Source: Pseudarthrobacter sp. C4D7
Lineage (GTDB): Bacteria; Actinomycetota; Actinomycetes; Actinomycetales; Micrococcaceae
Assembly: GCF_013359725.1 (NCBI RefSeq)
Contig: NZ_JABFMW010000001.1
Span: forward strand, 248,001-312,000
Length of the DNA stretch: 64,000 nucleotides
Direction of reading: 5' to 3'
In this document: piece by piece, positions 16,655 to 38,640 of the stretch
Position numbering within the stretch: position 1 is the first letter of the stretch
Layout of the letters: every line of letters begins with the position of its first letter
The notes under the pieces: generated by a model
What the model was told of the DNA's origin: nothing
Seen by the model: the letters and a program-made list of their open reading frames with translations, nothing else
Databases searched by the model: none
Made by a program: the position numbers and the translations under genes

Positions 16655-17539
16655 TTATTGCCCGCTGAAGGTCATCACCGTGTTGATGACAGCCGGTCCC
16701 AGGATGGCGATGAAAAGAACCGGGAAGATAAAGAACAGCAGGGGGAAAAGAATCATGACCGGCAGCTTCATGGCCTTTTCCTCCGCCCGCTGGCGGCGTT
16801 TGACCCGCATGACCTTGGCCTGGACGCGCAACACCCGGCTGATGGCGATGCCGTATGTGTCAGCCTGGACGACGGCCTGCACGAAGCTGCGAAGTTCGGG
16901 GATGCTGGTCCGCTCCGCCAGCGCGATGTAGGACTCGCGCCGGCTGCGTCCCACCTGCATGTCCTGCAGGGTGCGGACCAGTTCCTCGGCCAGCGGTCCT
17001 TTTCCGTTTTCTCCTGCCCGTGCCATGGCGCCTTCGAACCCCAGCCCGGCCTCCACGGAGATCAGCATTTGGTCCAGGGTGTTGGCCAGTTCCAGCTGCA
17101 TCGCCTTCTGCCGCTCCTGTCCCTTGCTGTAGAGGAGGAGGTCCGGGATGAAATACCCAAGGAACAGGACGAAGATCCCGGCGAGCTTCATCAACGGGCT
17201 GCTTCCGATTCCCGCCAGGTAGCCGCCCATTGCCACGCCGGCCAGGCCCAGGGCGAGCTTGGAGCCCAGCACCTTTCCCAGCGGCATGGCGGCGGGCCGC
17301 CCGGCGAGGGACAGGAGGCGGTCCAAGAATGCGACGTAGGCCGGGGGAGTGAGGCGCCGGCCCAGGGCTTCGAGCCGTGCCGGCGCCCCCGGCGCCACCG
17401 CGGCGGTGGCCGGTGCGCCGCGGGAGAGCAGGTCGCTGACTGCGGCGCGGCCCTGCTTGTCCACGGCCAGGACGGACCACGCCAGCGCCGCCATGGGGAC
17501 ACAGACCAGCACTATGGCGAGGGGAATGATAAGGCTCAT
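16655..17539 (-). CDS. tadC: Tad pilus inner-membrane platform protein TadC (locus 1)
   Basis: The 294-aa protein is a type II secretion GspF-family platform subunit with an N-terminal membrane helix, a middle pair, and a C-terminal helix. Conserved features include ELANTLDQMLISVEAGLGFE, GPLAEELVRTLQDMQVGRSR and LRVQAKVMRVKRRQRAEEKA. It pairs with TadB around the TadA ATPase. It is the last gene of locus 1, six bases after tadB. Its closest visible relative is the TadC of locus 2. Confidence 0.92.
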   Translation of the reverse strand: MSLIIPLAIVLVCVPMAALAWSVLAVDKQGRAAVSDLLSRGAPATAAVAPGAPARLEALGRRLTPPAYVAFLDRLLSLAGRPAAMPLGKVLGSKLALGLAGVAMGGYLAGIGSSPLMKLAGIFVLFLGYFIPDLLLYSKGQERQKAMQLELANTLDQMLISVEAGLGFEGAMARAGENGKGPLAEELVRTLQDMQVGRSRRESYIALAERTSIPELRSFVQAVVQADTYGIAISRVLRVQAKVMRVKRRQRAEEKAMKLPVMILFPLLFFIFPVLFIAILGPAVINTVMTFSGQ

Positions 17540-17545
17540 GGGTCC

Positions 17546-18478
17546 TCAGAACTTCAGGTCGATGATCTTGCGCATCCACAGCGCACCGATGGTCACCAGG
17601 ACAAAGGACGCACCGATCATCACCCAGCCCAGGGGGTTGGTGAACATGGAGTTCATGTAGCTGGGGCTGACCGCCAGCAGCATGGCCACGATGCCGAACG
17701 GCATGGCAATCAGGATGTAGGCGGAGAACTTCCCTTCCGCGGCCAAGGCCTTGATGTGGCCCTTGATCTCAGCGCGCTCGCGGATGGTTTCGTTGACCTG
17801 GTCCAGGACCTCCGCCAGGTTGCCGCCCACCTCGCGGTTGATCTGGATAGCCTGCGAAATCCAGACGAAGTCCTCGTTCTTCATCCGGTCCGCGGTGTCA
17901 TTGAGGGCGGCGAGCAGGTCACGGCCCAGGCTGGTTTCTGTGATCACCCGCCGCATCTCCTCGGAGGTGGGTTTCTGTGATTCGGCAGCGGCGGCGTCGA
18001 TGGCGCGCAGGATGCTGTGCCCTGCGCGCAGCCCGCCGGAGAGCAGCTGCAGGGTGTCGCCCAGCTGGCTGTCGAAGGCGGTGCGGCGCTTGCCGGCCAG
18101 GAATCCGAGGAACAATTTGCCCACGAAGGGCGATAGCAGGGCGAGCAGCAGTCCCATGAAGGGGCCAACGGTGACCAGGCCCACCAGCATGCCGACGCAC
18201 GCCCCGATCCCCACGAGCAGGAAGAACTCCGCCTGGCTGAGCCGCAGGCCTGCATTCTCCAGTTCCGCCCTGGAGAAGAGCTTGACGTTGCGGCCGGCGA
18301 GCAGCTTCTCGAAGGACTTCACTCCGGAGAGTGCCACACGGGACAGCGAAGACGGCGGCTCGGGTTCAAACGGACGACGCCGGTCCAGCGGCACGGGGGG
18401 CGTGCCCGGCAGGAGCACGGCTACGCCGAGCAGGCAGATGGCTGCGAACAGGATGGCACTTCCCATGGCGATGATCAT
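17546..18478 (-). CDS. tadB: Tad pilus inner-membrane platform protein TadB (locus 1)
   Basis: This 310-aa GspF-family protein has an N-terminal membrane helix, a central helix pair and two C-terminal helices. It contains QLGDTLQLLSGGLRAGHSIL, SEEMRRVITETSLGRDL and WISQAIQINREVGGNLAEVL, the TadB core. The ATG at 18478 has AGGCGGG upstream; the open frame extends further, but that part is the complement of tadA codons. It lies ten bases after the tadA stop. Confidence 0.92.
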   Translation of the reverse strand: MIIAMGSAILFAAICLLGVAVLLPGTPPVPLDRRRPFEPEPPSSLSRVALSGVKSFEKLLAGRNVKLFSRAELENAGLRLSQAEFFLLVGIGACVGMLVGLVTVGPFMGLLLALLSPFVGKLFLGFLAGKRRTAFDSQLGDTLQLLSGGLRAGHSILRAIDAAAAESQKPTSEEMRRVITETSLGRDLLAALNDTADRMKNEDFVWISQAIQINREVGGNLAEVLDQVNETIRERAEIKGHIKALAAEGKFSAYILIAMPFGIVAMLLAVSPSYMNSMFTNPLGWVMIGASFVLVTIGALWMRKIIDLKF

Positions 18479-18488
18479 GGCTGCCCGC

Positions 18489-19973
18489 CTACTTTGCGCC
18501 CGGCCCCAGCGGCGTGGCGAACACCGCGGGGGACACATGGATGCCCAGGTCTTCGAACCGGTCAATGAAGCGGGGCCGGATGCCGGTGGCCACCGGCCGG
18601 CCCAGGAACCGGCCGTGGGCGTCCACGCCTGCGGAGTAGTCGAAGACAAACGCGTCCTGGAGGGTGACGATGTCCCCTTCCATGCCCTGGACCTCCGTGA
18701 CGTGGGTGATCCGCCGGGAGCCGTCCCGCAGACGCGAGATCTGGACGATGAGGTTCACGGCGGATGCGATCTGTTCGCGGATGGCGCGCAGCGGCAGGTC
18801 CATCCCGGCCATGAGCACCAGGGTTTCCAGGCGGGCCACGGCATCGCGGGGCGAGTTGGAGTGCACGGTGGAGAGGGAGCCGTCGTGGCCGGTGTTCATG
18901 GCCTGGAGCATGTCCAGTGATTCACCGCCGCGGACCTCGCCCACCACGATCCGGTCCGGGCGCATGCGGAGGGAGTTGCGGAGGAGCTCGCGGATGGTGA
19001 CTTCGCCCTTGCCCTCGGTGTTGGGCGGGCGGCTTTCCAGCCGGACCACGTGGTCCTGCTGGATCTGCAGTTCCACGGCGTCCTCGATGGTGACGATCCG
19101 CTCGTCGTGGGGCAGGAACGAGGACAGGACGTTCAGGAGCGTGGTCTTGCCCGTGCCGGTACCGCCGGAGACGATGATGTTCAGCTTGGCCTTGACGCAG
19201 GCGTTCAGCAGCTCGGCCATCTCGGGAGTCAGGGTGCCGTAGTCGATGAGGTTACGGACGGTCAGCGGGGTTTTGCTGAACTTTCGGATGGTGAGCGATG
19301 AGCCGCCCACGGCCAGCGGCGGAATGACCGCGTTTACACGGGAACCGTCCTCCAGGCGGGCATCCACCAGCGGGGAGGACTCATCGATGCGGCGGCCTAC
19401 CTTGGACACGATCCGTTCGATGACCTTGCGCAGGTGCTCCTCGGAGCTGAAGCGCGACTCGGTGAGCGTCAGCTTGCCCTTCCGTTCCACGTAGATCTGG
19501 TCCATGCGGTTGACCATGATTTCGGTAACGGCGGGATCGTCCAGGAGGCGCTGCAGGGGGCCGTAACCCAGCACGTCGTCGGCCACGTCCTGGACCAGGC
19601 GGGTGCGTTCCTCCGGGGTCAACGGCACCTGCTCGGCGTCGACGATGCGGGTGAGTTCCTCCTTGGCGGTGGTCCGCAGTTCCCGTTCACTTACGGCTGC
19701 GTCGTTGAAGCGCGTCCCCATCCGTTCGAACAGAGCGGTGGCCGCCCTGTCCTTCATGGCTGCGAAGACATCCACCCGCGGTGCCGTGGGCACCAAGGAG
19801 GTGCCGGCGTCGTGCGTTGAATGCACGACGGCGGCGTGCGCCGGCTGGTGCCGCTCCGTGCTTTCCGAGGGGGAAGGCGAAGGCGCGGGGGCCGGGCGGG
19901 GCGGCTCCAGCAGCGCGGTGCCCGACGCCTGGTTGCGCGACTGGACCGCGTTGATGCGTTCGGAGAGTTTCAT
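18489..19973 (-). CDS. tadA: Tad/CpaF pilus assembly ATPase (locus 1)
   Basis: This secretion-superfamily ATPase powers Flp pilin polymerisation. The 494-aa protein has a Pro-rich variable N-terminus, an all-helical N-domain, Walker A (GGTGTGKTT, about residues 270-278), the Asp/His boxes and RMRPDRIVVGEVRGGESLDM with Walker B. ATG 19973 was chosen with AAGGGTGG upstream; it overlaps the cpaE stop by one base (TGATG). The last 230 residues are nearly the same as in the locus 2 copy, whereas the first 90 differ. Confidence 0.95.
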   Translation of the reverse strand: MKLSERINAVQSRNQASGTALLEPPRPAPAPSPSPSESTERHQPAHAAVVHSTHDAGTSLVPTAPRVDVFAAMKDRAATALFERMGTRFNDAAVSERELRTTAKEELTRIVDAEQVPLTPEERTRLVQDVADDVLGYGPLQRLLDDPAVTEIMVNRMDQIYVERKGKLTLTESRFSSEEHLRKVIERIVSKVGRRIDESSPLVDARLEDGSRVNAVIPPLAVGGSSLTIRKFSKTPLTVRNLIDYGTLTPEMAELLNACVKAKLNIIVSGGTGTGKTTLLNVLSSFLPHDERIVTIEDAVELQIQQDHVVRLESRPPNTEGKGEVTIRELLRNSLRMRPDRIVVGEVRGGESLDMLQAMNTGHDGSLSTVHSNSPRDAVARLETLVLMAGMDLPLRAIREQIASAVNLIVQISRLRDGSRRITHVTEVQGMEGDIVTLQDAFVFDYSAGVDAHGRFLGRPVATGIRPRFIDRFEDLGIHVSPAVFATPLGPGAK

Positions 19974-21166
19974 CAGATGACCACCCTTCGGTGAAGTTTC
20001 CGCTGGGCCTGCGTGCGCCATGCCGGGTTGAAGCGCTCCACCAGCTGGCGGAGGCTCTTGACGGCGGGGTCCTTCTTGGATTCCTGGAGGACGGGGATGC
20101 CGCGGTTGGTGGACAGGGCCACGGCGCGGGAGCGGGGGACGCTGACGTCCACGGGCGCGCCGATGGTGGATTCGACGTCCCGGACGTTCAGGCCGGATTT
20201 CGCATCGGCCATGTTCAGGACCACGTGGCGGGATTCGGGCATGATGTCCAGTTGGCGCAGGACCTCAAGGCCGGAGCGGAGGCCGCGGAGGCTGGGGATG
20301 TCCATGGCGCTGACCCAGACCACGTCGGTGCACTGTTCCATGGCGGCGAGGCCGATTTCGGGCATCCCGGGGGCGGTGTCGATGACCACATACTGGAATT
20401 CCTGGGCAAGCTGTTCGAGCAGGTGGCCGATCTGTTCCGGGGTGATGTGGTCCGCGTCCACGGGGTTGGGCGGGGCGCACAGGGCGTAGATGCCTGCCGG
20501 GTGGACCGTGAGGAAGGCCTTCAGGACCAGGGAGTCCTGGGCGGCGGCAGGGGAGACGGCGTCAGTGACGGTGTGCTGCGGATTGAGGTAGAGGCCGGAG
20601 GCGACGTCCCCGAACTGCAGGTCAAGGTCCACGATGACCACGCTCATGGGCGCGATCTGGCCAAGGCCGATGGCGATGTTGGTGGCCAGCGTGGTCTTGC
20701 CGACGCCGCCCTTGGGGGAGAAGACGCCGATGACCAGGCCGCTGCCGCTCTCCGCCTGCTGTGCCTCCGGGCCGCGGTGGCGCGTGGTGAAGGATTGGCA
20801 GGCGCGCTCCAGCAGCACCCTGATTTCCGCGGCGTCGGCCTGCGGGCTGAGGATGTCGCGGATGCCGGCGCGCATGGCGTGGAGGAGGTAATCGGGGTCC
20901 ACGTCACTGACCAGGACCAGGCTGAGGCCTGGCAGTTGGACGTCGAATACCTTGGCGAACCGCAGGGCCTCTTCATACGGGACGTCCGGTCCGATGATGA
21001 GGACCTCGGGCTGTTCCTGGTTGAGGAGGGCGAACAGCTCCGCGGGACCTGCGGGGAGGATGTCGCTGGCGATGGTCTGGACGGTGCCGCGCAGCCCGTT
21101 GGCGACGGCGGCGCGCAGCTTCTGGTCGAAGTCGCCGTTGGGGGAGAGGAGGACGAAGCGGCTCAT
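19973..21166 (-). CDS. cpaE: Tad pilus assembly protein CpaE/TadZ (locus 1)
   Basis: A receiver-like N-terminal domain (residues 1 to about 125) is followed by a MinD/ParA-type ATPase with deviant Walker A (SPKGGVGKTT, about residues 150-159) and VVIVDLDLQFGDVASGLYL. TadZ/CpaE proteins position the pilus machinery at the membrane. The 397-aa product starts at ATG 21166, overlapping the cpaB stop (ATGA); upstream codons in frame are not conserved. Its receiver-like domain lacks an obvious phosphorylation site. Confidence 0.92.
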   Translation of the reverse strand: MSRFVLLSPNGDFDQKLRAAVANGLRGTVQTIASDILPAGPAELFALLNQEQPEVLIIGPDVPYEEALRFAKVFDVQLPGLSLVLVSDVDPDYLLHAMRAGIRDILSPQADAAEIRVLLERACQSFTTRHRGPEAQQAESGSGLVIGVFSPKGGVGKTTLATNIAIGLGQIAPMSVVIVDLDLQFGDVASGLYLNPQHTVTDAVSPAAAQDSLVLKAFLTVHPAGIYALCAPPNPVDADHITPEQIGHLLEQLAQEFQYVVIDTAPGMPEIGLAAMEQCTDVVWVSAMDIPSLRGLRSGLEVLRQLDIMPESRHVVLNMADAKSGLNVRDVESTIGAPVDVSVPRSRAVALSTNRGIPVLQESKKDPAVKSLRQLVERFNPAWRTQAQRKLHRRVVI

Positions 21167-21912
21167 TTGTACACGTTGTCCTTCCTGGCGATGAAGCCGC
21201 CGTTGTCCTGCGCGTCGAGGGGTTCCTTGGTGAGCCAAAGGCTGCCGTTGAGGTTCGTGTAGATGATCTTGCTTGCATCCACGTCACTCACCGCCACGGT
21301 CACCATGAAAGAGCCTTGGGGAAGGGTGGTGTCCTGCGGGTTTGTGCCGTCGGTGGGCTTGGCAGTTGGTTGCGCGGCGCGCTGGACGGCGGTGACAAGG
21401 ACTTTACGCAGGGAGAGCTGCGTGGTGGGCTCACCGGGCTTGTTCTTGTCCGCGCCGCCCGCAAAGCTGAATCCGATGGCCACATGGTCCCCGGCTTCAA
21501 GCCGGCCACCGACAACCATCTTGGGTTCCAGCTCGAAGGTCACTTCCTGCAAGCCGTCGGGCACTTTGGCGGCACTGCTGCTCTTGGCGTCTTGAGGGGC
21601 GATGAGGCGTTCGGCGAGGAGCTGTTCGCCGGGGACCAGATCGACGGCGGCCACGGTCCCGCCCTTGCCATCCAGCGAGGTGAGCGCAGTGGCGGCTACA
21701 CCGGCTGCGGGCACGTCCTCGATGACGAGCGAAGCCGTCATGTCATTCACCGGGGTTCCGGCGGGGATGGCCTTTTGGACGACCAGCACTTTCTTGGGGT
21801 TCGTGGTGGCCATCGCCCGTGCGTCGGCGCCGTTCGCGTAAACGATGATGAGAAGGGCTCCCACAAGCGCCAGGGCTACGGCGGCCGCGCCAGCGAGCAT
21901 GCGAGATTTCAC
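21163..21912 (-). CDS. cpaB: Flp pilus assembly protein CpaB (locus 1)
   Basis: The 249-aa protein has one N-terminal membrane helix (residues 5 to 25) and a SAF/CpaB domain (VLVVQKAIPAGTPVNDMTAS, AVDLVPGEQLLAERLI). It also has the RcpC-like segment, DGLQEVTFELEPKMVVGGRL. CpaB is an envelope-facing Tad component, perhaps contacting peptidoglycan. The GTG at 21912 follows AGGAGAAA, which rules out the longer open frame upstream. It overlaps cpaE by four bases. Confidence 0.9.
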   Translation of the reverse strand: MKSRMLAGAAAVALALVGALLIIVYANGADARAMATTNPKKVLVVQKAIPAGTPVNDMTASLVIEDVPAAGVAATALTSLDGKGGTVAAVDLVPGEQLLAERLIAPQDAKSSSAAKVPDGLQEVTFELEPKMVVGGRLEAGDHVAIGFSFAGGADKNKPGEPTTQLSLRKVLVTAVQRAAQPTAKPTDGTNPQDTTLPQGSFMVTVAVSDVDASKIIYTNLNGSLWLTKEPLDAQDNGGFIARKDNVYK

Positions 21913-21934
21913 TTTTTCTCCTGATGGGATAGCG

Positions 21935-22984
21935 CTAGAGGGTCGGGCGGACGATGGTTGCACCGTAAGGGCTGACGGGGCCCAGGGTGTAGCCGTCCGC
22001 GAGGGAAACGTAGGTGACGAACTTGCCGATGATGCCGCGGCAGTTTCCGGTACATTGGGTAGCCGTGGTAACCCCTGTAGCTGTGGACTTGGTGCTTTGG
22101 AATTCATAGGGCAGGCCTGTGCCGCCGCTGAACTTCCAGCCGGTGACGTCGAAGGCTGCAAAGGAGACCAGGCTGTAGATCGCTCCCGATCCAGTGCCGG
22201 TGATTTTGTTGAAGACGGGAAGCAGCACGATGACCTTCTTGCCGGCTGCGATGTCTGCACCCCAGCCGTTAAGCGTGGCATCGCAGTTGCCAGGCGCGTT
22301 GTTGCCCGGGTCGCTGCCGCCCTCGCTCACTGCCAGGTCGATGGTGCCGCCGCATTTTCCGGCATCCTGGACAAGCCATCCGTAGCCGCCGGACACCGCC
22401 GCTCCTGAGGGCCCATAATTGCACGAGGCATTGGCATTCTGGCCATGGTCCTGGAGAAGCTGCAGGCCGCCGTCGACATAGCCCTTGACCTGGCAGATGG
22501 AAAAGGCAAGCGGGAAAGCAGTGCGTCCGGCTTTGGGGCTGCCCCAAACAGCCGACGCCTTCGCACCAACCTCTTTGGATGGGATGCCCAGCACTCCGGC
22601 AAAGAAGAGGGAGACCGAATTGTCCGGAGCTCCCTTTTCCCTGGATGTGGTGGTGACCGAAACAGTCCTGGCCGTTGTGTCTAACTGGATGTTGTTGACG
22701 TTGCTCATGCCGTCCAGCGCGTTTTGGTTCGCCAGGCTGCCGGCGAGCGTGGACGTCGTCGAACACAGCGGGTCTGCTGCATTGCGCGCGCACTTTTGTG
22801 CGACGGCGATTGCGGAAGCGTCCGCACCGTTCTGCAGCTGCGCACGCTCGGAATAGATCACCCCGACGTCGACTGCGATGGCCACGAAGCCGAGGAGGGT
22901 CACCAGGAGGATGGCAACGATGACGCTGATGGCGCCGCGCTCGCCGTGCTCAGTGGCGCGGTTGTTCCTACTCAGCCGCCGCAC
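21935..22984 (-). CDS. tadG: TadG-like pilus assembly protein (locus 1)
   Basis: The 349-aa protein starts with a pseudopilin-type segment (GERGAISVIVAILLVTLLGF) and the TadG signature VDVGVIYSERAQLQNGADAS, followed by a secreted domain with several Cys pairs. TadG-like proteins are anchored by the N-terminal helix and act in Flp fibre initiation. It overlaps tadE by 13 bases, the same overlap as in locus 2. The C-terminal region is not conserved enough to name. Confidence 0.87.
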   Translation of the reverse strand: MRRLSRNNRATEHGERGAISVIVAILLVTLLGFVAIAVDVGVIYSERAQLQNGADASAIAVAQKCARNAADPLCSTTSTLAGSLANQNALDGMSNVNNIQLDTTARTVSVTTTSREKGAPDNSVSLFFAGVLGIPSKEVGAKASAVWGSPKAGRTAFPLAFSICQVKGYVDGGLQLLQDHGQNANASCNYGPSGAAVSGGYGWLVQDAGKCGGTIDLAVSEGGSDPGNNAPGNCDATLNGWGADIAAGKKVIVLLPVFNKITGTGSGAIYSLVSFAAFDVTGWKFSGGTGLPYEFQSTKSTATGVTTATQCTGNCRGIIGKFVTYVSLADGYTLGPVSPYGATIVRPTL

Positions 22985-23355
22985 AGCATTACCCCTTTGC
23001 CTGTCATCGGGAACGGGCCGGCGATGCCGGTGATGGTTGAGAGCGTGTACTTGATGGTCAGCGTTATCTGGTTCCCCGTGCTGCAGGTGGTGCTGCTGAG
23101 CGTGATGTCTGAGACGGGAATGGTGCTGCTGACGGATGCGGCCGCGTTTTGCGCTGCTTTCTTGGCGGCGGTGGGATCGTTGTTGATCGCCATGACCCGC
23201 ACCCCGTCGCGGGCTGCGTTGGTCAGGGTGATCTGGGCGTTGTACGCCCGGCCGAATTCGATAGTTCCCAGCACAAGCATCAAGAGGAGGGGCAGCAGGA
23301 TCGCGAATTCGACGGCGGCCGCGCCGCGCTCCGAATCACGTTTCACCTGCTGCAC
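22972..23355 (-). CDS. tadE: TadE-family minor pseudopilin (locus 1)
   Basis: The 127-aa product has a short leader ending SERG, then AAAVEFAILLPLLLMLVLGT, a typical TadE prepilin sequence with Glu at +5. The prepilin peptidase should cut after the Gly. The C-terminal domain has two Cys that may pair. It lies between flp and tadG. Confidence 0.9.
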   Translation of the reverse strand: MQQVKRDSERGAAAVEFAILLPLLLMLVLGTIEFGRAYNAQITLTNAARDGVRVMAINNDPTAAKKAAQNAAASVSSTIPVSDITLSSTTCSTGNQITLTIKYTLSTITGIAGPFPMTGKGVMLCGG

Positions 23356-23433
23356 CTCCTCTTATTTTGCTTGTTTCCGCCGGGCAGAGTGCCGCCGTTC
23401 CAATATGGGGTCCGGAACGGTTGGCGGGGGGTG

Positions 23434-23637
23434 CTACGGGGAGGGGATGGCGGTGGAGGTGGGGTGCGCAATGTCCTTGGTAACACCGCTGAAGAGGGTG
23501 CCGAGCTGGCCGCCGAGCGTGCTGACCGCGACGATGATGACGACTGCGATGAGGGCGACCATGATGCCGTATTCAACGGCGGTTGCGCCCTTTTCGCTGC
23601 GAAGACGGATCATGATGTTGGTGTAGAGAGAAAGCAT
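23434..23637 (-). CDS. flp: Flp-type major pilin (locus 1)
   Basis: This 67-aa prepilin has a 17-residue leader ending RSEKG and the mature start ATAVEYGIMVALIAVVIIVA, the Flp signature with Glu5 and Tyr6. The ATG at 23637 follows AGGAG; the longer open frame upstream is promoter DNA. It is the first gene of locus 1, and 78 bases separate it from tadE. The C-terminal tail differs from the other three pilins in the window (PTSTAIPSP end). Confidence 0.93.
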   Translation of the reverse strand: MLSLYTNIMIRLRSEKGATAVEYGIMVALIAVVIIVAVSTLGGQLGTLFSGVTKDIAHPTSTAIPSP

Positions 23638-23759
23638 CTGAGACTCCTGTGCGAGACGGATTGGCTGGCCCTGCACCAGCACTGGATCGAAGTTAGCAAC
23701 GCTTGATCCGGTGTTGACCCGATCTTGCAACATCCTGCGCAAAGCCTTTACGCAGGGCC

Positions 23760-23792
23760 TTTTTCCTGCGCTTTTGGTGGGTTTTTCCTGCG
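23760..23792. repeat. direct repeats upstream of locus 1 flp
   Basis: TTTTTCCTGCG occurs at 23760-23770 and 23782-23792, 22 bp apart (two helical turns), with a shorter TCCTGCG at 23733-23739. On the minus strand these are CGCAGGAAAAA boxes about 100-150 bp before the first pilin gene of locus 1. They may be regulator sites. Confidence 0.45.
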
Positions 23793-23822
23793 TCAGCGGT
23801 GGGCTACCGGACCTTGGCACGC

Positions 23823-23859
23823 AAAAGGACCCCCTCGGTTCTGGGTGCCGAGGGGGTCC
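23823..23859 (-). terminator. terminator ending tad locus 2
   Basis: CCGAGGGGGTCC (23848-23859) pairs with GGACCCCCTCGG (23827-23838) in a 12-bp stem with a nine-base loop. Read on the minus strand it is followed by CCTTTTGC. It lies 40 bases after the last gene of locus 2 and separates the two tad loci. Confidence 0.8.
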
Positions 23860-23899
23860 GGTTCTTGGAGCGCCGCAAAGTGCGATGGGCGGGCGTCCC

Positions 23900-24112
23900 C
23901 TAGGGGAGGCCGAGCGCGGCCTTGAGCCCGGTGGTGAGGTGGTCGAAGAAACCGTTGAGCGATAGCCCGAACAGGCCCACTCCGGCCACGATCACAATGG
24001 CAATAAAACCGACCGTGATTCCATATTCCGTGGCGGTTGCGCCGTCTTCCTCAGCCCTTAGGCGTTGCGTAAAACTTCGGATCAGCCACAAGGCCTGTAC
24101 TAGTTGCGTCAT
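23900..24112 (-). CDS. flp: Flp-type pilin at the end of locus 2
   Basis: The 70-aa prepilin has a 24-residue leader ending RAEEDG and the mature start ATATEYGITVGFIAIVIVAG. It follows tadC of locus 2 by eight bases, so it is expressed from the locus 2 operon, not from its own promoter. Its C-terminus (FFDHLTTGLKAALGLP) differs from the paired pilins at 30820-31249. It may be a minor pilin. AGGAGGAACC precedes the ATG. Confidence 0.9.
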   Translation of the reverse strand: MTQLVQALWLIRSFTQRLRAEEDGATATEYGITVGFIAIVIVAGVGLFGLSLNGFFDHLTTGLKAALGLP

Positions 24113-24120
24113 GGTTCCTC

Positions 24121-24993: not shown

Positions 24994-25002
24994 GTCGCGC
25001 TC

Positions 25003-25956
25003 CTAGTACTTCGGCTTAATCAGCCGGCTAAGCCAAAAGCCGCCGGCAGTGAGCATTACGGCCGCAGCGCCTAGCATCAGGAACCCGGGAACTGTAGTCG
25101 TGAACGTTTTCGCATATTGACCGTTGATCAAGATCAGTGCGAAGAACAAAACCACCGGCAGTCCCATGAGAACAGCAGCTGACATCTTTCCTTCGGCACT
25201 TAGCGCCTTCACCTGACGGCGAATCTGGTTGCGGTCGCGGATAGTTTCGCCGACATGATCAAGTACTTCCGCCAAATCTCCGCCCACCTCCCGGTGGATC
25301 TCGATGGCCTGGGAGATCCAGCTGAAGTCTTCGCTTCCCGTGCGGATAGACACTTCTGTCATTGATTCCCCCAAGTCGCGGCCGATCCTGGTTTCATTGA
25401 CGATCCTGCTCAGTTCTTCCGACATTGGCGCGTCACTTTCACGTGCTGACGCGTCGATAGCCCGCAAGAGGGAATGACCGGCTCGCATGCTTCCCGTAAG
25501 CATTTGCAGGGTGTCGGGCAGTTGCTCGTCGAACTTACTCTTGCGCCTGGCGATAAGGACCGAAAGATAGGCGAGCATCCCGGCGGGAACAACTGCAAGC
25601 AGAACGATCGCGAAGAAGAGTCCCCCAAGGAGGAAACCGAATACGCTACCTGCCAGCGCTCCTGCGCCCATCATGAGCAGAAAGTCCGCGGGCTGGGCCT
25701 TCAGCCCGGCCCGTTCCAGCTTCTCGCGAGTAATCAGGAAGTTGTTCTTTCCCTTAAGTCGCTTGTTGATGGCGCCAACGGCGGTGTCGGTCAGCACGGT
25801 AAGCCTGGAAGCGCTTGCGGGCACATCAGGGCGGCGGCGTGAGAGCGGGATTGTATTTCCGGGTTTCAGAACGACTACGAAAGTGACGATGATCGATGTG
25901 AAGATCATTAACACCCCCGCCACCAGGATCATGATCGGGGCTTCTGGAGTTTCCAT
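25003..25956 (-). CDS. tadB: Tad pilus inner-membrane platform protein TadB (locus 2)
   Basis: The 317-aa GspF-family protein shows QLPDTLQMLTGSMRAGHSLL, SEELSRIVNETRIGRDL and WISQAIEIHREVGGDLAEVL, matching locus 1 TadB position for position. The N-terminal helix (IMILVAGVLMIFTSIIVTFV) and linker differ. Its start directly abuts the tadA stop, so the genes are translationally coupled. Confidence 0.92.
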   Translation of the reverse strand: METPEAPIMILVAGVLMIFTSIIVTFVVVLKPGNTIPLSRRRPDVPASASRLTVLTDTAVGAINKRLKGKNNFLITREKLERAGLKAQPADFLLMMGAGALAGSVFGFLLGGLFFAIVLLAVVPAGMLAYLSVLIARRKSKFDEQLPDTLQMLTGSMRAGHSLLRAIDASARESDAPMSEELSRIVNETRIGRDLGESMTEVSIRTGSEDFSWISQAIEIHREVGGDLAEVLDHVGETIRDRNQIRRQVKALSAEGKMSAAVLMGLPVVLFFALILINGQYAKTFTTTVPGFLMLGAAAVMLTAGGFWLSRLIKPKY

Positions 25957-27402
25957 CTACCGGCTCCTCGGCCCTTGGGCTCCGAATACGGAGGGAGAAA
26001 TCCTGATTCCCAGTTCTTCGAACCTGTCCGTAAACCGCGGACGAACCCCCGTCGGAACGGGCTTCCCAAGGAACCTTCCGTTCGCGTCAATGCCGGCGGA
26101 GTAGTCGAAGACGAAAGCGTCCTGAAGCGTGACGATGTCGCCCTCCATCCCCTGGACTTCAGTTATGTGTGTCACCCTCCGGGTTCCGTCGCGGAGCCGG
26201 GAGATATGGACAATCAGGTTGACCGCGGATGCAATTTGCTCGCGGATTGCCCTGAGTGGGAGGTCCATCCCTGCCATAAGGACGAGGGTCTCCAGTCGGG
26301 CCACGGCGTCACGAGGTGAGTTTGCGTGGACCGTTGATATCGAGCCGTCGTGACCGGTGTTCATCGCCTGGAGCATATCTAGCGATTCGCCCCCACGGAC
26401 CTCGCCGACAACGATGCGGTCAGGCCTCATCCGGAGGGAGTTGCGAACCAGGTCACGTATGGAGACTTCACCTTTGCCCTCAATATTCGCTGGCCGGCTC
26501 TCCAACCTGACCACGTGGTCTTGTTGGAGCTGCAGTTCGACGGCATCCTCAATGGTGACAATGCGGTCTGTGGCAGGGATGAATGACGAAAGGACATTCA
26601 GCATCGTCGTTTTTCCCGTGCCCGTACCGCCGGAAACGATGATGTTCATTCGGGCCAGGACACAAGCCTGGAGCAGTTCGGCCATTTCGGGAGACAGGCT
26701 TCCAAAGCTGATCAGTTTCTGTACCGTCAGCGCCTCCCGCCCGAACTTTCGGATTGTCAGAGAGGCACCGTTGACGGCCAACGGAGGGATGATGGCGTTT
26801 ACGCGCGATCCATCAGCCAGGCGCGCATCCACGAGGGGGGAGGATTCGTCGATCCGTCGACCTATCCGGGTGACGATCCGTTCGATTACTCTACGCAGCG
26901 CCTCCTCGTTGCTGAACTTAGTGTCAGTGAGAAACAGGTGGCCGTTGCGCTCCACGTAGATCTGGTCTGCCCTGTTGACCATGATCTCTGTGACTGACGG
27001 GTCATCGAGGTACCGCTGCAGCGGCCCATGTCCCAGGACATCGTCGATGATCTCCCGTGTCAGTCGTTGCCGCTCACCCTGTGACAGAGGGACCTGTTCC
27101 TCATCAACCACGGCCTTCAGCTCGTCCTTCACGAACTGATGGAGTTCGGCCTCCTCAAGGGATGAGTCTGTAATTCGGGAGCCAAGCCTCTCGTAGAGTG
27201 CCTGGCTGGCACGTTCCTTGAGCCCTGTGAGTGCCTCACTCGCAGTCCCACCGGTAACTTCAACTGTCACGGGGATTTGGGCTTGCTCTGCTGCCTGGGC
27301 CTGCTGGATAGCGCCCAGAGTCGAGGCGGCATGTGGGGAGATTGCGGGTGCAACGGGATCGGACTCGCCACGCATCTTCGCAAAACGGTTAGAGAGACTC
27401 AC
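25957..27402 (-). CDS. tadA: Tad/CpaF pilus assembly ATPase (locus 2)
   Basis: The 481-aa ATPase has Walker A GGTGTGKTT at about residues 258-266 and RMRPDRIVVGEVRGGESLDM. Its C-terminal half is almost identical to the locus 1 TadA through to PVPTGVRPRFTDRFEELGIR. The first 60 residues (Ala/Gln-rich) are unrelated. It overlaps cpaE by four bases. The high similarity of the motor next to diverged partners points to duplication followed by specialisation. Confidence 0.95.
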   Translation of the reverse strand: MSLSNRFAKMRGESDPVAPAISPHAASTLGAIQQAQAAEQAQIPVTVEVTGGTASEALTGLKERASQALYERLGSRITDSSLEEAELHQFVKDELKAVVDEEQVPLSQGERQRLTREIIDDVLGHGPLQRYLDDPSVTEIMVNRADQIYVERNGHLFLTDTKFSNEEALRRVIERIVTRIGRRIDESSPLVDARLADGSRVNAIIPPLAVNGASLTIRKFGREALTVQKLISFGSLSPEMAELLQACVLARMNIIVSGGTGTGKTTMLNVLSSFIPATDRIVTIEDAVELQLQQDHVVRLESRPANIEGKGEVSIRDLVRNSLRMRPDRIVVGEVRGGESLDMLQAMNTGHDGSISTVHANSPRDAVARLETLVLMAGMDLPLRAIREQIASAVNLIVHISRLRDGTRRVTHITEVQGMEGDIVTLQDAFVFDYSAGIDANGRFLGKPVPTGVRPRFTDRFEELGIRISPSVFGAQGPRSR

Positions 27403-28598
27403 TGCACTACCGCCCTTCTGTGGACCTTCTTCCGCGGCGCTTCCCAGTTAGGTTTGAAACGCTCGACCAACTTCCGCAGCCCCTTGGCTGCTCCGTCCCG
27501 GCTCCCGTCCTGAAGCAGGGGGACTCCCTTGTTTGTTGAGAACGGCACCGCACGGGATTTGGGAAGAACTACATCAACGGGAGCGCCGATGGTGGCCTCC
27601 ACGTCCTGGACCGTAAGACCTGTTCGCCGATCAGCCATGTTGAGGACAACGTGCCGGTTATCGGGTAGCAGGTCGAGCTCGGACAAGATCTGGAAGCCGG
27701 TTCGCAATCCACGAATGCTGGGCACATCCATGCCGCACACCCAGACGGCGTCCGTGGCTTGCTCAAGCGTGGCGAGCACGTGCTCGCCCAGACCGGGTGC
27801 GGTGTCGACCACCACATATTGGAACTCGGCTCGCAGCTGGCGCAGCAGGTGGCTGATATTTTCCCCGGTTATACGGTCCATATCGATGGGATTGCGGGGC
27901 GCACAGAGGACGTAAATGTTGCTGGGGTGCAGCGACAAATATGTCTTGAGCACCATTGCGTCCTGGCTAGCGGCGCCAACAACAGCCTCTGTGATCGTGA
28001 ATTCAGGTTCAAGCATCAGCCCGCTTGCAATGTCGCCAAACTGGAGATCCAGATCGACGACCACCACGCTCATTGGTGAGACCTGTCCCAAGCCGATCGC
28101 AAGGTTGCTTGCCACCGTCGTCTTGCCGACGCCGCCTTTGGGAGACATGACAGCGATGACCCGCCCCCCTTCAGCGGCTGGACGCTCAGCAGTGTTAGGA
28201 GCCAAACCACGCCGACGTCCGGCGGCGGCAAGGCTGGCCCGTTCCACCAATGCCCGGACCTGGTCCATATCTGCTGCCGGCGGGATGAGGTCGCGAATAC
28301 CGGAACGCATGGCGTTCAAAGCAAGCTCGCCGTCGTCTTCCGCGGCCAGAACGATGCTAATTTCCGGGTACTGGAGGTCCATTACCGCTGCGAACTTGAG
28401 AGCTTCGTCCTGCGGAAGGCCAGGTCCGAGAATCAGTACCTCAGGAGGTTCGCCCGCTTGTTGCCGAAGGATATCGTCAGGGGATTCGGGGAGATAGGCG
28501 GCTTGAAAGAACTGCAATGAGCCACTGAGGGGTGCTACAGACGCCCGGACTTTTCGTTCGTAGTCGGTGGACGGCGAGATCAGAATGAAGCGGCTCAT
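27399..28598 (-). CDS. cpaE: Tad pilus assembly protein CpaE/TadZ (locus 2)
   Basis: The 399-aa protein starts MSRFILISPSTDYERKVRAS, parallel to the locus 1 copy, and has a receiver-like domain and then a MinD-type ATPase (SPKGGVGKTTVASNLAIGLG, VVVVDLDLQFGDIASGLML). The overlap ATGA with cpaB upstream and with tadA downstream is the same layout as in locus 1. Confidence 0.92.
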   Translation of the reverse strand: MSRFILISPSTDYERKVRASVAPLSGSLQFFQAAYLPESPDDILRQQAGEPPEVLILGPGLPQDEALKFAAVMDLQYPEISIVLAAEDDGELALNAMRSGIRDLIPPAADMDQVRALVERASLAAAGRRRGLAPNTAERPAAEGGRVIAVMSPKGGVGKTTVASNLAIGLGQVSPMSVVVVDLDLQFGDIASGLMLEPEFTITEAVVGAASQDAMVLKTYLSLHPSNIYVLCAPRNPIDMDRITGENISHLLRQLRAEFQYVVVDTAPGLGEHVLATLEQATDAVWVCGMDVPSIRGLRTGFQILSELDLLPDNRHVVLNMADRRTGLTVQDVEATIGAPVDVVLPKSRAVPFSTNKGVPLLQDGSRDGAAKGLRKLVERFKPNWEAPRKKVHRRAVVQ

Positions 28599-29365
28599 TT
28601 GAATACCTTTGTCTGGTTGACGACACCTTGGGTGCCTTCGGTGGCGTCGGCCGGCTCTTTCGAGAGGTAGACCTTTCCAAACTCAGCGGCGTAGACCAGC
28701 TTTTCGGTATCAACGGCGTCTCTGGCAAATGTAATCAGGTAAGAGTCGCTGGTTGCCGGCTTGTTCTCGCTGGCGGCGTTGAGGGCACTCGAAGAGCTGC
28801 CTTGAGTTGATTGCGCCTGCGTCTGCGCCGCGGCCCCTGAGCTAAACTGAACAGCCGTGACCAGAACCTTGTGGAACGTCAGTTGGGTTCCGTTTCCACC
28901 GCCCGCGGAGTCGGCCATGGAGATAAAGACGCCTACTGTGTCGCCGGCTTGGATCTTGCCGCCGACCACCCGCTCAATCCCCAAGCGAAGAGTGATCTCC
29001 TGGAGCCCGGCAGGAACTGCCACTCGGGAGGGCCCGAGGTAGGCATTTGCATCCACAAGGCGGCTGCTGAGGAGCTGCTCGCCGGGCACCAATGCTACTG
29101 ACGTGACCGTTGATCCCAACGAGCCCAGATCGTGGACCCCATCGGCTGCGACGGCAGTACGTGGCACGGCTTTGGTAGTCACGTATTGGGCGAGTTGACT
29201 AGCCGGCGTTCCGGCAGGGATGTTCTGTTTTACAACTAATACGTCTTCTGTTTCCGTGTTCGCCAATGCGCGTCGGTCCGCGCCTTGGACGTAGTTGAAA
29301 AGAAGGACCGTGCCAATGACTGCAACAACCAGCGCGGCGATGCCTCCCAGTAGGCGTGCTTTCAT
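28595..29365 (-). CDS. cpaB: Flp pilus assembly protein CpaB (locus 2)
   Basis: The 256-aa protein has an N-terminal membrane helix (LLGGIAALVVAVIGTVLLFN), a SAF-like domain (VLVVKQNIPAGTPASQLAQY, SVALVPGEQLLSSRLV) and the RcpC-like block AGLQEITLRLGIERVVGGKI. A Gln/Ser-rich low-complexity insert (TQAQSTQGSSSS) is absent from the locus 1 copy. It overlaps cpaE by four bases. Confidence 0.9.
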   Translation of the reverse strand: MKARLLGGIAALVVAVIGTVLLFNYVQGADRRALANTETEDVLVVKQNIPAGTPASQLAQYVTTKAVPRTAVAADGVHDLGSLGSTVTSVALVPGEQLLSSRLVDANAYLGPSRVAVPAGLQEITLRLGIERVVGGKIQAGDTVGVFISMADSAGGGNGTQLTFHKVLVTAVQFSSGAAAQTQAQSTQGSSSSALNAASENKPATSDSYLITFARDAVDTEKLVYAAEFGKVYLSKEPADATEGTQGVVNQTKVFK

Positions 29366-29383
29366 TACTTTCCCCTTAGATTT

Positions 29384-30352
29384 TTACTTGACCAGATGTG
29401 GCGGCAGATCGACCCCGCCACCGTCATAGCCGCCGCCACCGTAAAGCGTCGGGTCGGCTACCCATTCGACGAACTTGCCTCGGACGCCGCGATTGCTACC
29501 ACCAAGGCCTGTCAAATCGCCGCCCTCAGCTCCGGGGAAGCTGTATCCGAGGAGAAGGAACGCGGCATAGCCCTTGATGTAGTACTTGCCACCCGCGCCA
29601 GTGCCACTGGCAGGCGTGAAGACCGGAAACAGAACCACCTTGTTCAAATAGGTGGGAATGAGTGGTTTACAGTCCGATGGGATGCTCAATCCGGTATTCG
29701 TCTTGGCATATGGGTCCGTAACGCCAGCCGTTGTTGGGTCGTCCGGATATACGGTGGCTTGGCACTTGCCCGGGTCCGGCATTAACCATTCAAATCCGCC
29801 AGGTATTACCGCACCCGAAGGGCTGTCACTCGTACAGGTTTCACTGCCGTGAGTCAGGATCGTGTGAACCGATCCATCGACATCGAACTGGCATGGAGCG
29901 AACGTGATAGGCAACGTAGCAGGGCCCGACCCTGGCGACCCCCAGGCAGCCGTTGAGGTAGCACCTACTGTGACCGGTCCTGAGTTCAGCGCGCTTGCAA
30001 ACATTTTTGCCAAGAAACTGTTGGAGCCGTTCCGTGTGGATGTCGTCACCGTGACCTGCCCGGCGACACTCAGGTCCACTGCCGCGTCGCTGGCACCGTC
30101 GTTGGAGTTTGCGTTCGCAAGAGGGCCAGCGAGTGTGGCCACACACGGTCCCGGAGAGCAGCTCTTGGCCACGGCAAGTGCACCGGCGTCCGCGCCGTTC
30201 TGCAGTTGTGCGCGCTCCGCGTAGATCTGTCCGACGTCAACAGCCATGGCGCCGGCACCGATGAGGACCAGCATCATGACGGCCACCATGACGCCGGCCA
30301 CACCGCTTTCACGGGATCCTGGATCATCCTGGATTCTGGTTAGCCACCGCAT
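29384..30352 (-). CDS. tadG: TadG-like pilus assembly protein (locus 2)
   Basis: The 322-aa protein has a membrane helix (VMVAVMMLVLIGAGAMAV) and the TadG signature VDVGQIYAERAQLQNGADAG, then a Cys-containing secreted region ending in a Gly/Tyr-rich GGGGYDGGGVDLPP tail. ATG 30352 overlaps tadE by 13 bases exactly as in locus 1; in-frame codons further upstream belong to tadE sequence. The exported domain has diverged more from locus 1 than the cytoplasmic parts. Confidence 0.86.
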   Translation of the reverse strand: MRWLTRIQDDPGSRESGVAGVMVAVMMLVLIGAGAMAVDVGQIYAERAQLQNGADAGALAVAKSCSPGPCVATLAGPLANANSNDGASDAAVDLSVAGQVTVTTSTRNGSNSFLAKMFASALNSGPVTVGATSTAAWGSPGSGPATLPITFAPCQFDVDGSVHTILTHGSETCTSDSPSGAVIPGGFEWLMPDPGKCQATVYPDDPTTAGVTDPYAKTNTGLSIPSDCKPLIPTYLNKVVLFPVFTPASGTGAGGKYYIKGYAAFLLLGYSFPGAEGGDLTGLGGSNRGVRGKFVEWVADPTLYGGGGYDGGGVDLPPHLVK

Positions 30353-30738
30353 TGCATGGCTCCTTTGCCTTGAAGAACCAATGAGGACCCGAAAAAGCCT
30401 GTGAGGGAAGTACCGGAGTACGTAACGGTTACGGACGCAGTTGGCGTTGGAGTCACCGCCGGGCACATAGCTGCCGAATAATCGAAACTCAGCAGGGCGG
30501 TGTTTATGGAGGGTGCGCCTGTCTTTCCGGCCGCAGTTGCCTTCGCGGCATCGTGGGTGATCGCCATGGTTCGTGCCGCCTCGCGAGATGCCTGCGTGAC
30601 AGACACCTGGATGTTGTATGCGTTCGAGAACTCGACAATGGCGATAATCAGTGCAATTAGAATCGGGGCGACGAGCGCGAATTCGACTGCAACGGCACCC
30701 CGCTCACCGTTATCTGGAGTCCTGTGGCTGCGTTTCAA
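30340..30738 (-). CDS. tadE: TadE-family minor pseudopilin (locus 2)
   Basis: The 132-aa product has the leader KRSHRTPDNGERG then AVAVEFALVAPILIALIIAI, a TadE pseudopilin. I chose the TTG at 30738 because AGGGGGA precedes it and the result aligns with locus 1 TadE. An in-frame ATG at 30813 would add 25 residues whose codons include a terminator-like hairpin. The C-terminus MQCGG parallels LCGG of locus 1. Confidence 0.82.
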   Translation of the reverse strand: MKRSHRTPDNGERGAVAVEFALVAPILIALIIAIVEFSNAYNIQVSVTQASREAARTMAITHDAAKATAAGKTGAPSINTALLSFDYSAAMCPAVTPTPTASVTVTYSGTSLTGFFGSSLVLQGKGAMQCGG

Positions 30739-30778
30739 AGGGTCCCCCTGGACGGTTGCAGCGTGAAAATGATGTGGT

Positions 30779-30802
30779 GTGCCGCGCTGATGAGCGCGGC
30801 AC
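30779..30802 (-). terminator. attenuator-like hairpin between the paired pilins and tadE
   Basis: GTGCCGCGCT (30779-30788) and AGCGCGGCAC (30793-30802) form a perfect 10-bp stem with a four-base loop. Minus-strand transcription then reads CATCATTTTC. A partial terminator here would let pilin mRNA greatly exceed assembly-gene mRNA. Confidence 0.7.
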
Positions 30803-30819
30803 ACCGGGTGCATCTCGAA

Positions 30820-31020
30820 CTACCAACCGCCGACCGTGGTCGCGAGACTGCTGAAGAAGGTCTGAAGGTTCGTTCCAAAGAGCGTTACCCCAGCGACGAT
30901 GACGAGAGCAATGAGGCCAACCAAAAGCGAATATTCGGTTGCCGTCGCGCCCTTCTCCGTGGTGAGAACAGCGCGAAACGCGGTTATCACTTGTCGGACG
31001 TATGCATTGAGATTGCGCAT
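30820..31020 (-). CDS. flp: Flp-type pilin (locus 2, second of the tandem pair)
   Basis: The 66-aa prepilin has a 24-residue leader ending TTEKG and the mature start ATATEYSLLVGLIALVIVAG. Its mature part differs at a single position from the adjacent pilin (SSLATTVGGW against SSLATKVGGW), while the leaders are unrelated. ATG 31020 has GAAGGGAA upstream. The duplicated mature part points to a recent duplication or gene conversion. Confidence 0.92.
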   Translation of the reverse strand: MRNLNAYVRQVITAFRAVLTTEKGATATEYSLLVGLIALVIVAGVTLFGTNLQTFFSSLATTVGGW

Positions 31021-31048
31021 CGCTTTTGTTCCCTTCAATTTGGGGCTG

Positions 31049-31249
31049 TTACCAGCCGCCAACCTTCGTAGCAAGGCTGCTGAAGAAGGTCTGAAGGTTG
31101 GTACCGAAGAGCGTGACGCCGGCGACGATCACCAGTGCGATGAGCCCTACAAGAAGCGAGTACTCGGTAGCTGTTGCACCCTTTTCCGAAGAGAATCGAT
31201 CCTTGACGCCGGCGATGAACGCAGTCATTGAGACCATAAGAGAAGTCAT
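31049..31249 (-). CDS. flp: Flp-type pilin (locus 2, first of the tandem pair)
   Basis: This is the first gene of locus 2. The 66-aa prepilin has a leader ending SSEKG and the same 42-residue mature sequence as its neighbour except for one residue. AAAGGAAAA precedes the ATG at 31249. The AT-rich region upstream (to about 31330) should hold the operon promoter. Confidence 0.92.
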   Translation of the reverse strand: MTSLMVSMTAFIAGVKDRFSSEKGATATEYSLLVGLIALVIVAGVTLFGTNLQTFFSSLATKVGGW

Positions 31250-31385
31250 TGTATTTTCCTTTAATTCGGTGAAATGGGTTCTTTTTTATTCCAACGAATT
31301 TCCAGCTGCCCCCATAAATATTTAGCGGCTGGACTTCGCTAAGAAGAGATTGTCACTGGGGGGTATGGGGCAACAATGCGTAGTG

Positions 31386-31442
31386 GTACTCGACTTTTGG
31401 GGCAGACACCAAAAGTACGTACTCGAATACGGGGTCGAGTAC
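31386..31442. repeat. GTACTCGA repeats and nested hairpin upstream of locus 2
   Basis: GTACTCGA occurs at 31386-31393 and 31419-31426, with its inverse TCGAGTAC at 31435-31442. Between them ACTTTTGG (31393-31400) pairs with CCAAAAGT (31409-31416). The cluster lies about 140-195 bp upstream of the first locus 2 pilin and after the prepilin peptidase stop. It may be a multi-site operator or a structured RNA end; no T run supports a terminator. Confidence 0.5.
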
Positions 31443-31528
31443 TCAGTCGCCGTTCATATGTATCAGGCTGGCTACTTGCTGTTGTTGATGAAGCGGCCGG
31501 GGTGCGGCCGGATAATCGGCTGGGTTTG

Positions 31529-32194
31529 CTAGCCGATGAAGAACGTGACTGCGGCGACGGCTCCGAGCATCGAGGGGCCGTGGGGTACTTCGGTGGCCTT
31601 ATTCCGGCCTTTTCGACTGAGCACAAGCACTGTGACGATGCCATTCAAGACGAAGCCAATGAGGCCGCCGTAGAGCAGTTGGCTCCAACCTAGGTACCCC
31701 AGGTAAAGGCCGACAGGCGCGGCGAGCTTCACGTCGCCCATCCCGATGCCGCCGGGGGAAACGAGTCCCAAAATCAGGTAGGCAGCGAACAAAATAACCG
31801 CTCCCAGGGATGCGCGGAGCAGATCGTCAGATTGCTTACCAAATAGTCCCGGCAATAAAAGCAGTGAAAGACCGCCGGCCAGCAGTATTAACACGAGGGG
31901 ATTTGGCAGCAAATGGAGCGCCATGTCTATCCGTGCCAGCTGGGTGCCCAATACGGAAAGTAAAAGGAAGGCTGGAAGGCTCAATGCGTTGCCGAAATGC
32001 GCGGCAAAGGCCGCACATGCGATGCCGGTGAGCGTCGCCGTCGTAATTCTTGCCTGCAGTCCCGGCGTCTCGCCGAGCCTCGGAAGAAGCTTCGCAATCA
32101 GGAGTTCGGCGATGGGGGAGAGGATGCCTCCCAGAATCCCGGCGCCAACGACTAGCAGTGTGCTGGTGGGATCCCCATTCGCCGCTGACAGCAC
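31529..32194 (-). CDS. Prepilin peptidase, TadV/A24 type
   Basis: This 221-aa polytopic membrane aspartyl protease shows the two catalytic regions: the first Asp in LARIDMALHLLPNPLVLILL and the second in GGIGMGDVKLAAPVGLYLGY (GxGD-type). It lacks the N-terminal Cys-rich methylase domain, as TadV enzymes do. It is the only prepilin peptidase in the window and should process all four Flp pilins and both TadE proteins. Start is GTG 32194 with AGGGGGAT upstream. Confidence 0.9.
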   Translation of the reverse strand: MLSAANGDPTSTLLVVGAGILGGILSPIAELLIAKLLPRLGETPGLQARITTATLTGIACAAFAAHFGNALSLPAFLLLSVLGTQLARIDMALHLLPNPLVLILLAGGLSLLLLPGLFGKQSDDLLRASLGAVILFAAYLILGLVSPGGIGMGDVKLAAPVGLYLGYLGWSQLLYGGLIGFVLNGIVTVLVLSRKGRNKATEVPHGPSMLGAVAAVTFFIG

Positions 32195-38634: not shown

Positions 38635-38640
38635 GCATGG

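Follow-up and report, generated by a model that had tools for sequence, protein, structure and literature searches.

Two Tad/Flp pilus loci between truA and rplM in Pseudarthrobacter sp. C4D7, the second of which is likely a replaceable cassette

We describe here two Tad/Flp pilus loci of Pseudarthrobacter sp. C4D7, found in a 64,000-nucleotide stretch (the window; positions 248,001 to 312,000 of contig C11, NZ_JABFMW010000001.1) of its 4.32-Mb genome. Locus 1 (16655-23637) and locus 2 (23900-31249) stand in tandem on the minus strand between truA and rplM, and each is a complete Tad locus with open frames. They likely encode two independent type IVb pili, with locus 2 as a replaceable cassette that homologous recombination swaps for other versions. 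The evidence comes from the anatomy of the loci, their distribution among genomes, the conflict between the locus-2 tree and the species tree, flanks that stay resident and a plasmid-borne relative.

A first-pass annotation of the window had reported two complete loci with the order flp-tadE-tadG-cpaB-cpaE-tadA-tadB-tadC, and this was borne out by the open reading frames (ORFs) and the Pfam families. Flp_Fap, TadE, Tad, RcpC or Peptidase_A24 was found above the Pfam cut-off in each of ten scanned proteins. The 13-base overlap of tadE and tadG (22972-22984 and 30340-30352) and the 4-base overlap of cpaB and cpaE (21163-21166 and 28595-28598) that it had noted are present in both loci, and the flanks that it had named, truA and rplM, could be identified from their reading frames. 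It had counted four Flp pilins. One is in locus 1 and three are in locus 2 (the third 3' of tadC2), and together they are the four PF04964 matches that a profile search of the genome returned. Flp1, Flp2a, Flp2b and Flp2c have 67, 66, 66 and 70 residues, respectively, and GATA[VT]EY occurs in all four. The leaders of Flp2a and Flp2b differ, yet the two share 40 identical residues in one run (30820-31249), a local duplication of a pilin within locus 2.

TadA1 and TadA2 match T2SSE with 237 and 231 bits and carry the Walker A motif GGTGTGKT; their best NCBIfam match was TIGR03819 (351 and 355 bits, under its cut-off of 373). CpaE was likewise matched in NCBIfam under the curated cut-offs. The putative TadB and TadC are two successive ORFs in each locus, with a weak UpsF match as the only NCBIfam match of tadB2. 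TadV, a protein of 221 residues, has Peptidase_A24 as its sole match, above the cut-off, and has a GMGD motif and no methyltransferase domain. The predicted fold of TadG1 had a mean predicted local distance difference test score (pLDDT) of 73 and no PDB match at E <= 0.001, and the TadG2 model was poor (pLDDT 50.5). Each locus has its own pilin or pilins, pseudopilin, TadG, CpaB, CpaE, motor TadA and platform TadB/TadC, and each would be expected to build a fibre of its own.

The tandem had been presented as a local peculiarity, but it proved to be common in the genus. With TadA counted at E <= 1e-150, 61 of 100 genus genomes have the tandem, ten have the two copies apart (on other contigs or far from each other), 25 have one only and four have none. 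Of the 25 single-locus genomes, two are of locus-1 type and the other 23 were assigned to locus 2 by score (three of the 25 are less than 90% complete); 14 of the 25 were mapped, including one, L059, that lies outside the locus-2 groups described below. Six of the ten genomes with separate copies were mapped, and one of the four without such a TadA is 68% complete. The 39 tandem regions that were mapped represent 38 of the 61 tandem genomes and one genome from a family sample (G203). Since each locus occurs alone, two independent pili fit best. The first-pass suggestion of two co-assembled fibres stands in its count of two complete Tad systems, and co-assembly is disfavoured by the genomes with one such TadA only (25/100) or with both apart (10/100).

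Named records with this gene map are mostly Arthrobacter; 14 of 79 named loci found were mapped, and the tandem was seen in Arthrobacter sp. OY3WO11, A. nitrophenolicus, A. ipis, Arthrobacter sp. ISL-28 and ISL-30 and one Sinomonas. At the family level, a TadA of this kind at E <= 1e-120 is present in 38 of 120 genomes, which represent 18 of 32 genera. Taken with the trees described below, in which locus 1 is roughly vertical within the genus and locus 2 is not, this distribution does not make the two loci vertical orthologues common to the family. The site itself looks old as a place for tad genes, because truA or rplM is in the same stretch in 20 of 37 regions from other genera, some of these stretches being incomplete.

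In a tree of 146 clusters, from which three repeats (L107, L109 and L117, of L030, L027 and L044) were left out, the locus-2 copies that genomes carry between TadV and locus 1 split deeply into at least five groups (A-E). A single locus-1 clade of 12 genomes (window included, support 100) contains all five groups. When 31 genomes, chosen from those mapped, were placed on a gyrB tree, the locus-2 class changed at least 12 times, where the minimum possible is 4 and the shuffled mean 14.1 (9 of 200 shuffles were as low), and well-supported gyrB pairs with different locus-2 classes were G065/G022, G066/G138, G061/G089 and G059/G203. Distances between locus-2 motor genes correlated with those of gyrB at r 0.13 (103 of 2000 permutations were as good) and with those of the exposed genes of locus 2 at 0.96. 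In an approximately unbiased (AU) test on locus 2, the grouping of ten near relatives was rejected (p = 6e-49), as were two gyrB sister pairs (p = 3e-7 and 6e-7). For TadV the same test gave no rejection of the ten near relatives (p = 0.18), and both pairs were recovered, one with a support of 75 only. Collectively, the cassette tree conflicts strongly with the species tree, and the flanks agree with it broadly, not fully.

The edges of the exchanged segment were assessed from the identity of five segments between pairs of genomes, namely the tadV-flp gap, the pilin downstream of the processing site, the bases that follow the pilin, the final 250 bases of tadC and those that precede flp1. Where the class differed but TadV was at least 75% identical (41 pairs), these identities were 81, 60, 52, 68 and 71%, respectively; where the class differed and TadV was below 65% (639 pairs) they were 60, 59, 50, 67 and 60%, and where both genomes shared a class and TadV was at least 75% identical (22 pairs) they were 85, 70, 61, 83 and 76%. 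Given these values, the gap 5' of the first pilin belongs to the flank, with the switch in or near the first pilin gene; the right-hand switch, read from the same comparison, is after tadC2 and before flp1. Pieces smaller than the cassette are exchanged too, because in a close relative (G035) tadE2 and tadG2 are 48% and 43% identical to those of the window amid a locus-2 motor of 91-97% and a TadV of 99% identity.

In the mechanism that we propose, homologous recombination would replace a segment that begins in or close to the first pilin gene and ends just past tadC2. TadV, the pre-pilin gap (the presumed promoter) and locus 1 would stay during the exchange, so that the new pilus would be expressed from the resident promoter and matured by the resident peptidase. 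Conjugative plasmids may carry such cassettes. The tad motor genes of pYA7-1b, a 90-kb plasmid of Arthrobacter sp. YA7-1 that is predicted to be conjugative, nest in class E (98% Shimodaira-Hasegawa-like support, set of 8). In this plasmid locus (L264, 4710-12625) tadE and tadG come after tadC, and the same order was found in L259 and L260. A more distant tad cluster is on pACHL01 of Pseudarthrobacter chlorophenolicus A6, which was typed as non-mobilizable. Among the loci compared, no direct donor and no donor-recipient pair for the locus-2 cassette was seen. A role in attachment or, as a guess, in escape from phages is possible.

The patchy distribution of the classes could also have come about by differential loss from an ancestral array of several locus-2 types, with no exchange needed. 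Two genomes, G055 and G079, do have a third such TadA, but on other contigs. We regard this course of events as unlikely, given that, at E <= 1e-150, the site never holds more than one additional TadA of this kind in the 61 tandem genomes, that gyrB sister species carry different single classes, and that the pre-pilin gap goes with the flank but the body of the gene does not.

The claim of only one TadV-type peptidase holds within the window and fails genome-wide, since a second A24 peptidase was found in the same genome (G000, C55:80475), with no tad genes around it in the stretch that was read; the idea of a single maturation enzyme falls with it. Two A24 peptidases are present in 92 of 101 genus genomes, three in five and one in four. 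Because two genomes without such a TadA at E <= 1e-150 (G033 and G092, both 99% complete) have one peptidase, the second peptidase looks like a general enzyme, with TadV apparently tied to these loci; a counter-case is G048 (620 contigs), which lacks such a TadA yet has two peptidases. TadV was found at the site in all 39 tandem regions (in L041 via the piece L202), in all 19 regions with locus 2 alone and at both locus-1-only sites, and no TadV match was found in the stretches fetched around six relocated locus-1 copies. In the two locus-1-only genomes (G098 and G018), locus 1 lies directly behind TadV, and G018 keeps a flp2a-like frame between them. As TadV is present in every region mapped at the site and has no match in the stretches around the six relocated copies, it probably serves both loci, as the first-pass annotation had proposed, by maturing their prepilins.

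The HPt, response-regulator and kinase genes beside locus 1 probably control it. Of 47 regions with locus 1, 46 have the response regulator and the HPt frame next to it (47 when a second piece of G009, L208, is counted), and 44 have the kinase (with L208 counted for G009). The response regulator and HPt frame are kept also in the six genomes with a relocated locus 1; of 19 regions that have locus 2 alone, two contain them. In the 146-cluster tree, the locus-1 copies of the genus fall within a single clade that also contains copies of other genera. The ten near relatives form one branch on locus 1 (support 96), and the two gyrB sister pairs were recovered. Among 26 genomes, the distance correlation with gyrB was 0.66 for the locus-1 motor, 0.65 for TadV, 0.67 for the response regulator and 0.77 for the kinase; L041, an incomplete region, was excluded from the distance tables.

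Several observations weigh against two independent pili with an exchangeable locus 2. The locus-2 classes were delimited by eye on the 146-cluster tree, and the genomes were chosen, not random. The gyrB tree leaves the place of the window open within a group of 16, so that the test on the ten relatives rests on the locus-1 grouping. Conservation of the flp leaders between classes (0.67 in distant pairs) blurs the exact breakpoints. The second A24 peptidase is present in 97 of the 101 genus genomes and could mature either pilus, and such a general peptidase could substitute for TadV. Three tandem genomes (L039, L064 and L218) lack the kinase beside locus 1. The exposed genes of locus 1 follow gyrB at 0.48 only, and in trees of 21-23 bipartitions few were shared with gyrB (6 of 23 for the locus-1 motor, 7 for TadV, 8 for the response regulator, 6 for the kinase and 3 for the locus-2 motor). 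Furthermore, several genomes (L209, L210 and L218-L220 among them) carry a swapped locus-1 tadG, often along with tadE and cpaB, and in a few (L035, L222 and L223) the whole locus-1 cassette has been swapped with the regulators left behind. Locus 1 is therefore exchanged as well, though less, and its contrast with locus 2 is one of degree.

One of the two loci might be silent or decaying while the other alone makes the fibre. A scan of 23300-24300, of a kind unsuited to this organism, gave no sigma-70-type promoter-like match and three terminator-like sites on the plus strand. Both loci nevertheless have open frames in which the ATPase and processing motifs are present. Between the window and G026, motor-protein identity is 91-98% for either locus at 81-93% nucleotide identity, which suggests purifying selection. 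We regard a silent or decaying locus as improbable.

The motor parts of the two loci had been described as close to identical over long blocks, and a tandem duplication in this lineage, giving two similar pili that are co-assembled or alternately expressed with one maturation enzyme, would account for the shared gene order, overlaps and strand and for the one TadV between rplM and the pilins. The identities between the loci range from 35 to 70%, however: 70% for TadA (longest identical run 38), 56% for CpaE, 53% for TadC, 43% for TadB, 41% for CpaB and TadG and 35% for TadE, and the TadA blocks are its conserved core. Across 44 genomes that carry both loci, two from other genera, the mean TadA identity of locus 1 and locus 2 was 0.711 within genomes and 0.708 between genomes, and CpaE and TadC behaved likewise; within-genome and between-genome identity being equal, there is no sign of recent duplication or homogenisation. 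In two tad trees (L088, with too few genes, being excluded from one of them), locus 1 and locus 2 fall in different clades, each shared with other genera. By identities and trees, the copies are not closer to each other than to their relatives. Together with the two A24 peptidases of the genome, these results make the duplication quite improbable.

Two further readings were rejected. Gene conversion between the loci was ruled out by the equality of within- and between-genome identity. In the window genome the guanine-plus-cytosine (GC) content of the motor genes is 58.4% in locus 2 and 66.8% in locus 1; low GC as a mark of recent arrival was ruled out, since locus 2 is below locus 1 in GC in 36 of 38 genomes.

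Four TadA-type ATPases of the genome are above the Pfam cut-off, two of them in the window. The third, on contig C22 (L024, 8230-12976), belongs to a tadA-tadB-tadC cluster with small TadE/F/G-like frames, followed by prfB-ftsE-ftsX. The fourth, on C35 (L023, 6616-12037), lies in a series of a CpaE/Ssd-like frame, tadA, tadB, tadC, and Flp-like and TadE/G-like frames, beside a helicase-like frame; in both clusters the names of unscanned frames are our reading. In gene content alone, L024 and L023 resemble tad-1 and tad-2 of Micrococcus luteus, respectively. That both loci of the window jointly build one competence pilus, as in M. luteus of the same family, where by an excerpt of PMC4322843 a knock-out in either tad cluster abolishes transformation and Flp complexes (for tadB, transformation is largely lost), is the least probable alternative, because some genomes have just one of the loci or have them at separate places and because the M. 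luteus clusters lack cpaB, cpaE and tadV and in gene content resemble L024 and L023 rather than the window pair.

The features of the window are collected in Table 1. The glycosyltransferase genes listed there lie between rpsI and glmM and are mostly of low GC. In G009 (L041), kin of the glycosyltransferase pair separate the two tad loci, and on pYA7-1b such genes directly follow tadG (GT2 76% identical). The set is tentatively a possible pilus glycosylation module; no link to the locus-2 class was evident by eye in the region maps.

Table 1. Features of the tandem Tad/Flp region and its surroundings (window coordinates)
Feature	Position	Strand	Basis and remarks
PAS-HisKA-HATPase histidine kinase, locus-1 module	13380..14948	-	Pfam
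OmpR-type response regulator (start chosen by us; ORF open from 15160)	15295..16074	+	Pfam
HPt-like phosphotransfer protein	16078..16560	-	Pfam Hpt, 22.4 bits, just below cut-off 24.6
tadC1	16655..17539	-	ORF; 53% identity to tadC2
tadB1 (start chosen by us)	17546..18478	-	ORF; 43% identity to tadB2
tadA1/cpaF motor ATPase	18489..20021	-	T2SSE; Walker A present
cpaE1/tadZ	19973..21166	-	MinD/CpaE matches below cut-off; KGGVGKT
cpaB1/rcpC (start chosen by us)	21163..21909	-	Pfam RcpC
tadG1	21935..22984	-	Pfam Tad; predicted long N-terminal helix, then beta-rich part
tadE1 pseudopilin	22972..23355	-	Pfam TadE
flp1 pilin, G/ATAVEY processing site	23434..23637	-	Pfam Flp_Fap; motif
Intergenic region 5' of flp1	23638..23899		Segment identities; right edge of exchanged segment between tadC2 end and flp1
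flp2c, third locus-2 pilin, downstream of tadC2	23900..24112	-	Pfam Flp_Fap
tadC2	24121..24993	-	ORF
tadB2	25003..25956	-	ORF
tadA2/cpaF motor ATPase	25957..27402	-	T2SSE; Walker A present
cpaE2/tadZ	27399..28598	-	MinD/CpaE matches below cut-off; KGGVGKT
cpaB2/rcpC	28595..29365	-	Pfam RcpC
tadG2	29384..30352	-	Pfam Tad
tadE2 pseudopilin (true start possibly internal)	30340..30813	-	Pfam TadE
flp2b pilin	30820..31020	-	PF04964 genome match; 71% identity to flp2a
flp2a pilin	31049..31249	-	Pfam; left edge of exchanged segment in or just 5' of flp2a
tadV-flp2a intergenic region, presumed locus-2 promoter	31250..31528		Follows flank, not cassette
tadV prepilin peptidase	31529..32194	-	Pfam Peptidase_A24; G.GD motif
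Two GT39 (PMT_2/YkcB_C) and one GT2-GtrA glycosyltransferase	33577..38802	-	Pfam

If locus 2 is indeed a replaceable cassette, surface-fibre identity would be a switchable trait in a common soil genus, and paired strains would become usable for tests of pilus function and phage sensitivity. The region also cautions that similar loci standing in tandem within a genome need not have arisen by duplication, and it shows that two Tad machines are able to coexist without homogenising. A bolder version, which we would sooner doubt than assert, makes truA-rplM a pilus dock of Arthrobacter, with a resident peptidase, a resident promoter and a stable, regulated locus 1, into which entire second machines, motor included, would be swapped via homologous recombination fed by plasmids or DNA uptake; close relatives would then switch pilus type, perhaps under phage pressure. 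Tad pili of Caulobacter are phage receptors.

Surface-antigen loci such as those for O-antigen and capsule have a variable cassette between conserved flanks, which is exchanged at a fixed chromosomal site. Here, unlike there, a whole pilus machine with its motor would be exchanged, and no polysaccharide pathway. The two loci resemble known Tad/Flp (type IVb) systems in flp, tadE, tadG, cpaB/rcpC, cpaE/tadZ, tadA, putative tadB and tadC, and TadV and in the G/xxxxEY processing site. They differ in that two full loci stand in tandem, with TadV and cpaB within the cluster; in the excerpts concerned, actinobacterial tadV is described as not clustered with tad genes (PMC4322843) and rcpC/cpaB as absent from Gram-positive tad loci (PMC8467076). 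M. luteus likewise has two tad clusters per genome and a peptidase without a methyltransferase domain, but its clusters, as far as the same part of PMC4322843 describes them, are 1.2 Mb apart, have no cpaB, cpaE or tadV inside and are both needed for one pilus, while those described here lie side by side, are complete and each occur without the other in some relatives. Its cpaB and cpaE are placed with a PAS kinase in a separate operon in an excerpt of PMC8467076. The motor genes of pYA7-1b lie within the chromosomal locus-2 class E, but its tadE and tadG follow tadC and are themselves followed by GT2 and GT39 genes. In the papers listed on tad/Flp pili of Arthrobacter and Micrococcaceae, judged from titles and abstract openings and with subscription journals thinly covered, the exchange of locus 2 is not described. 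Frequent transfer of Tad pili among bacteria has been reported (PMC6668835, in the part available); here, a whole filament machine appears to be replaced repeatedly at one site between close relatives, with the peptidase and the pre-pilin gap retained.

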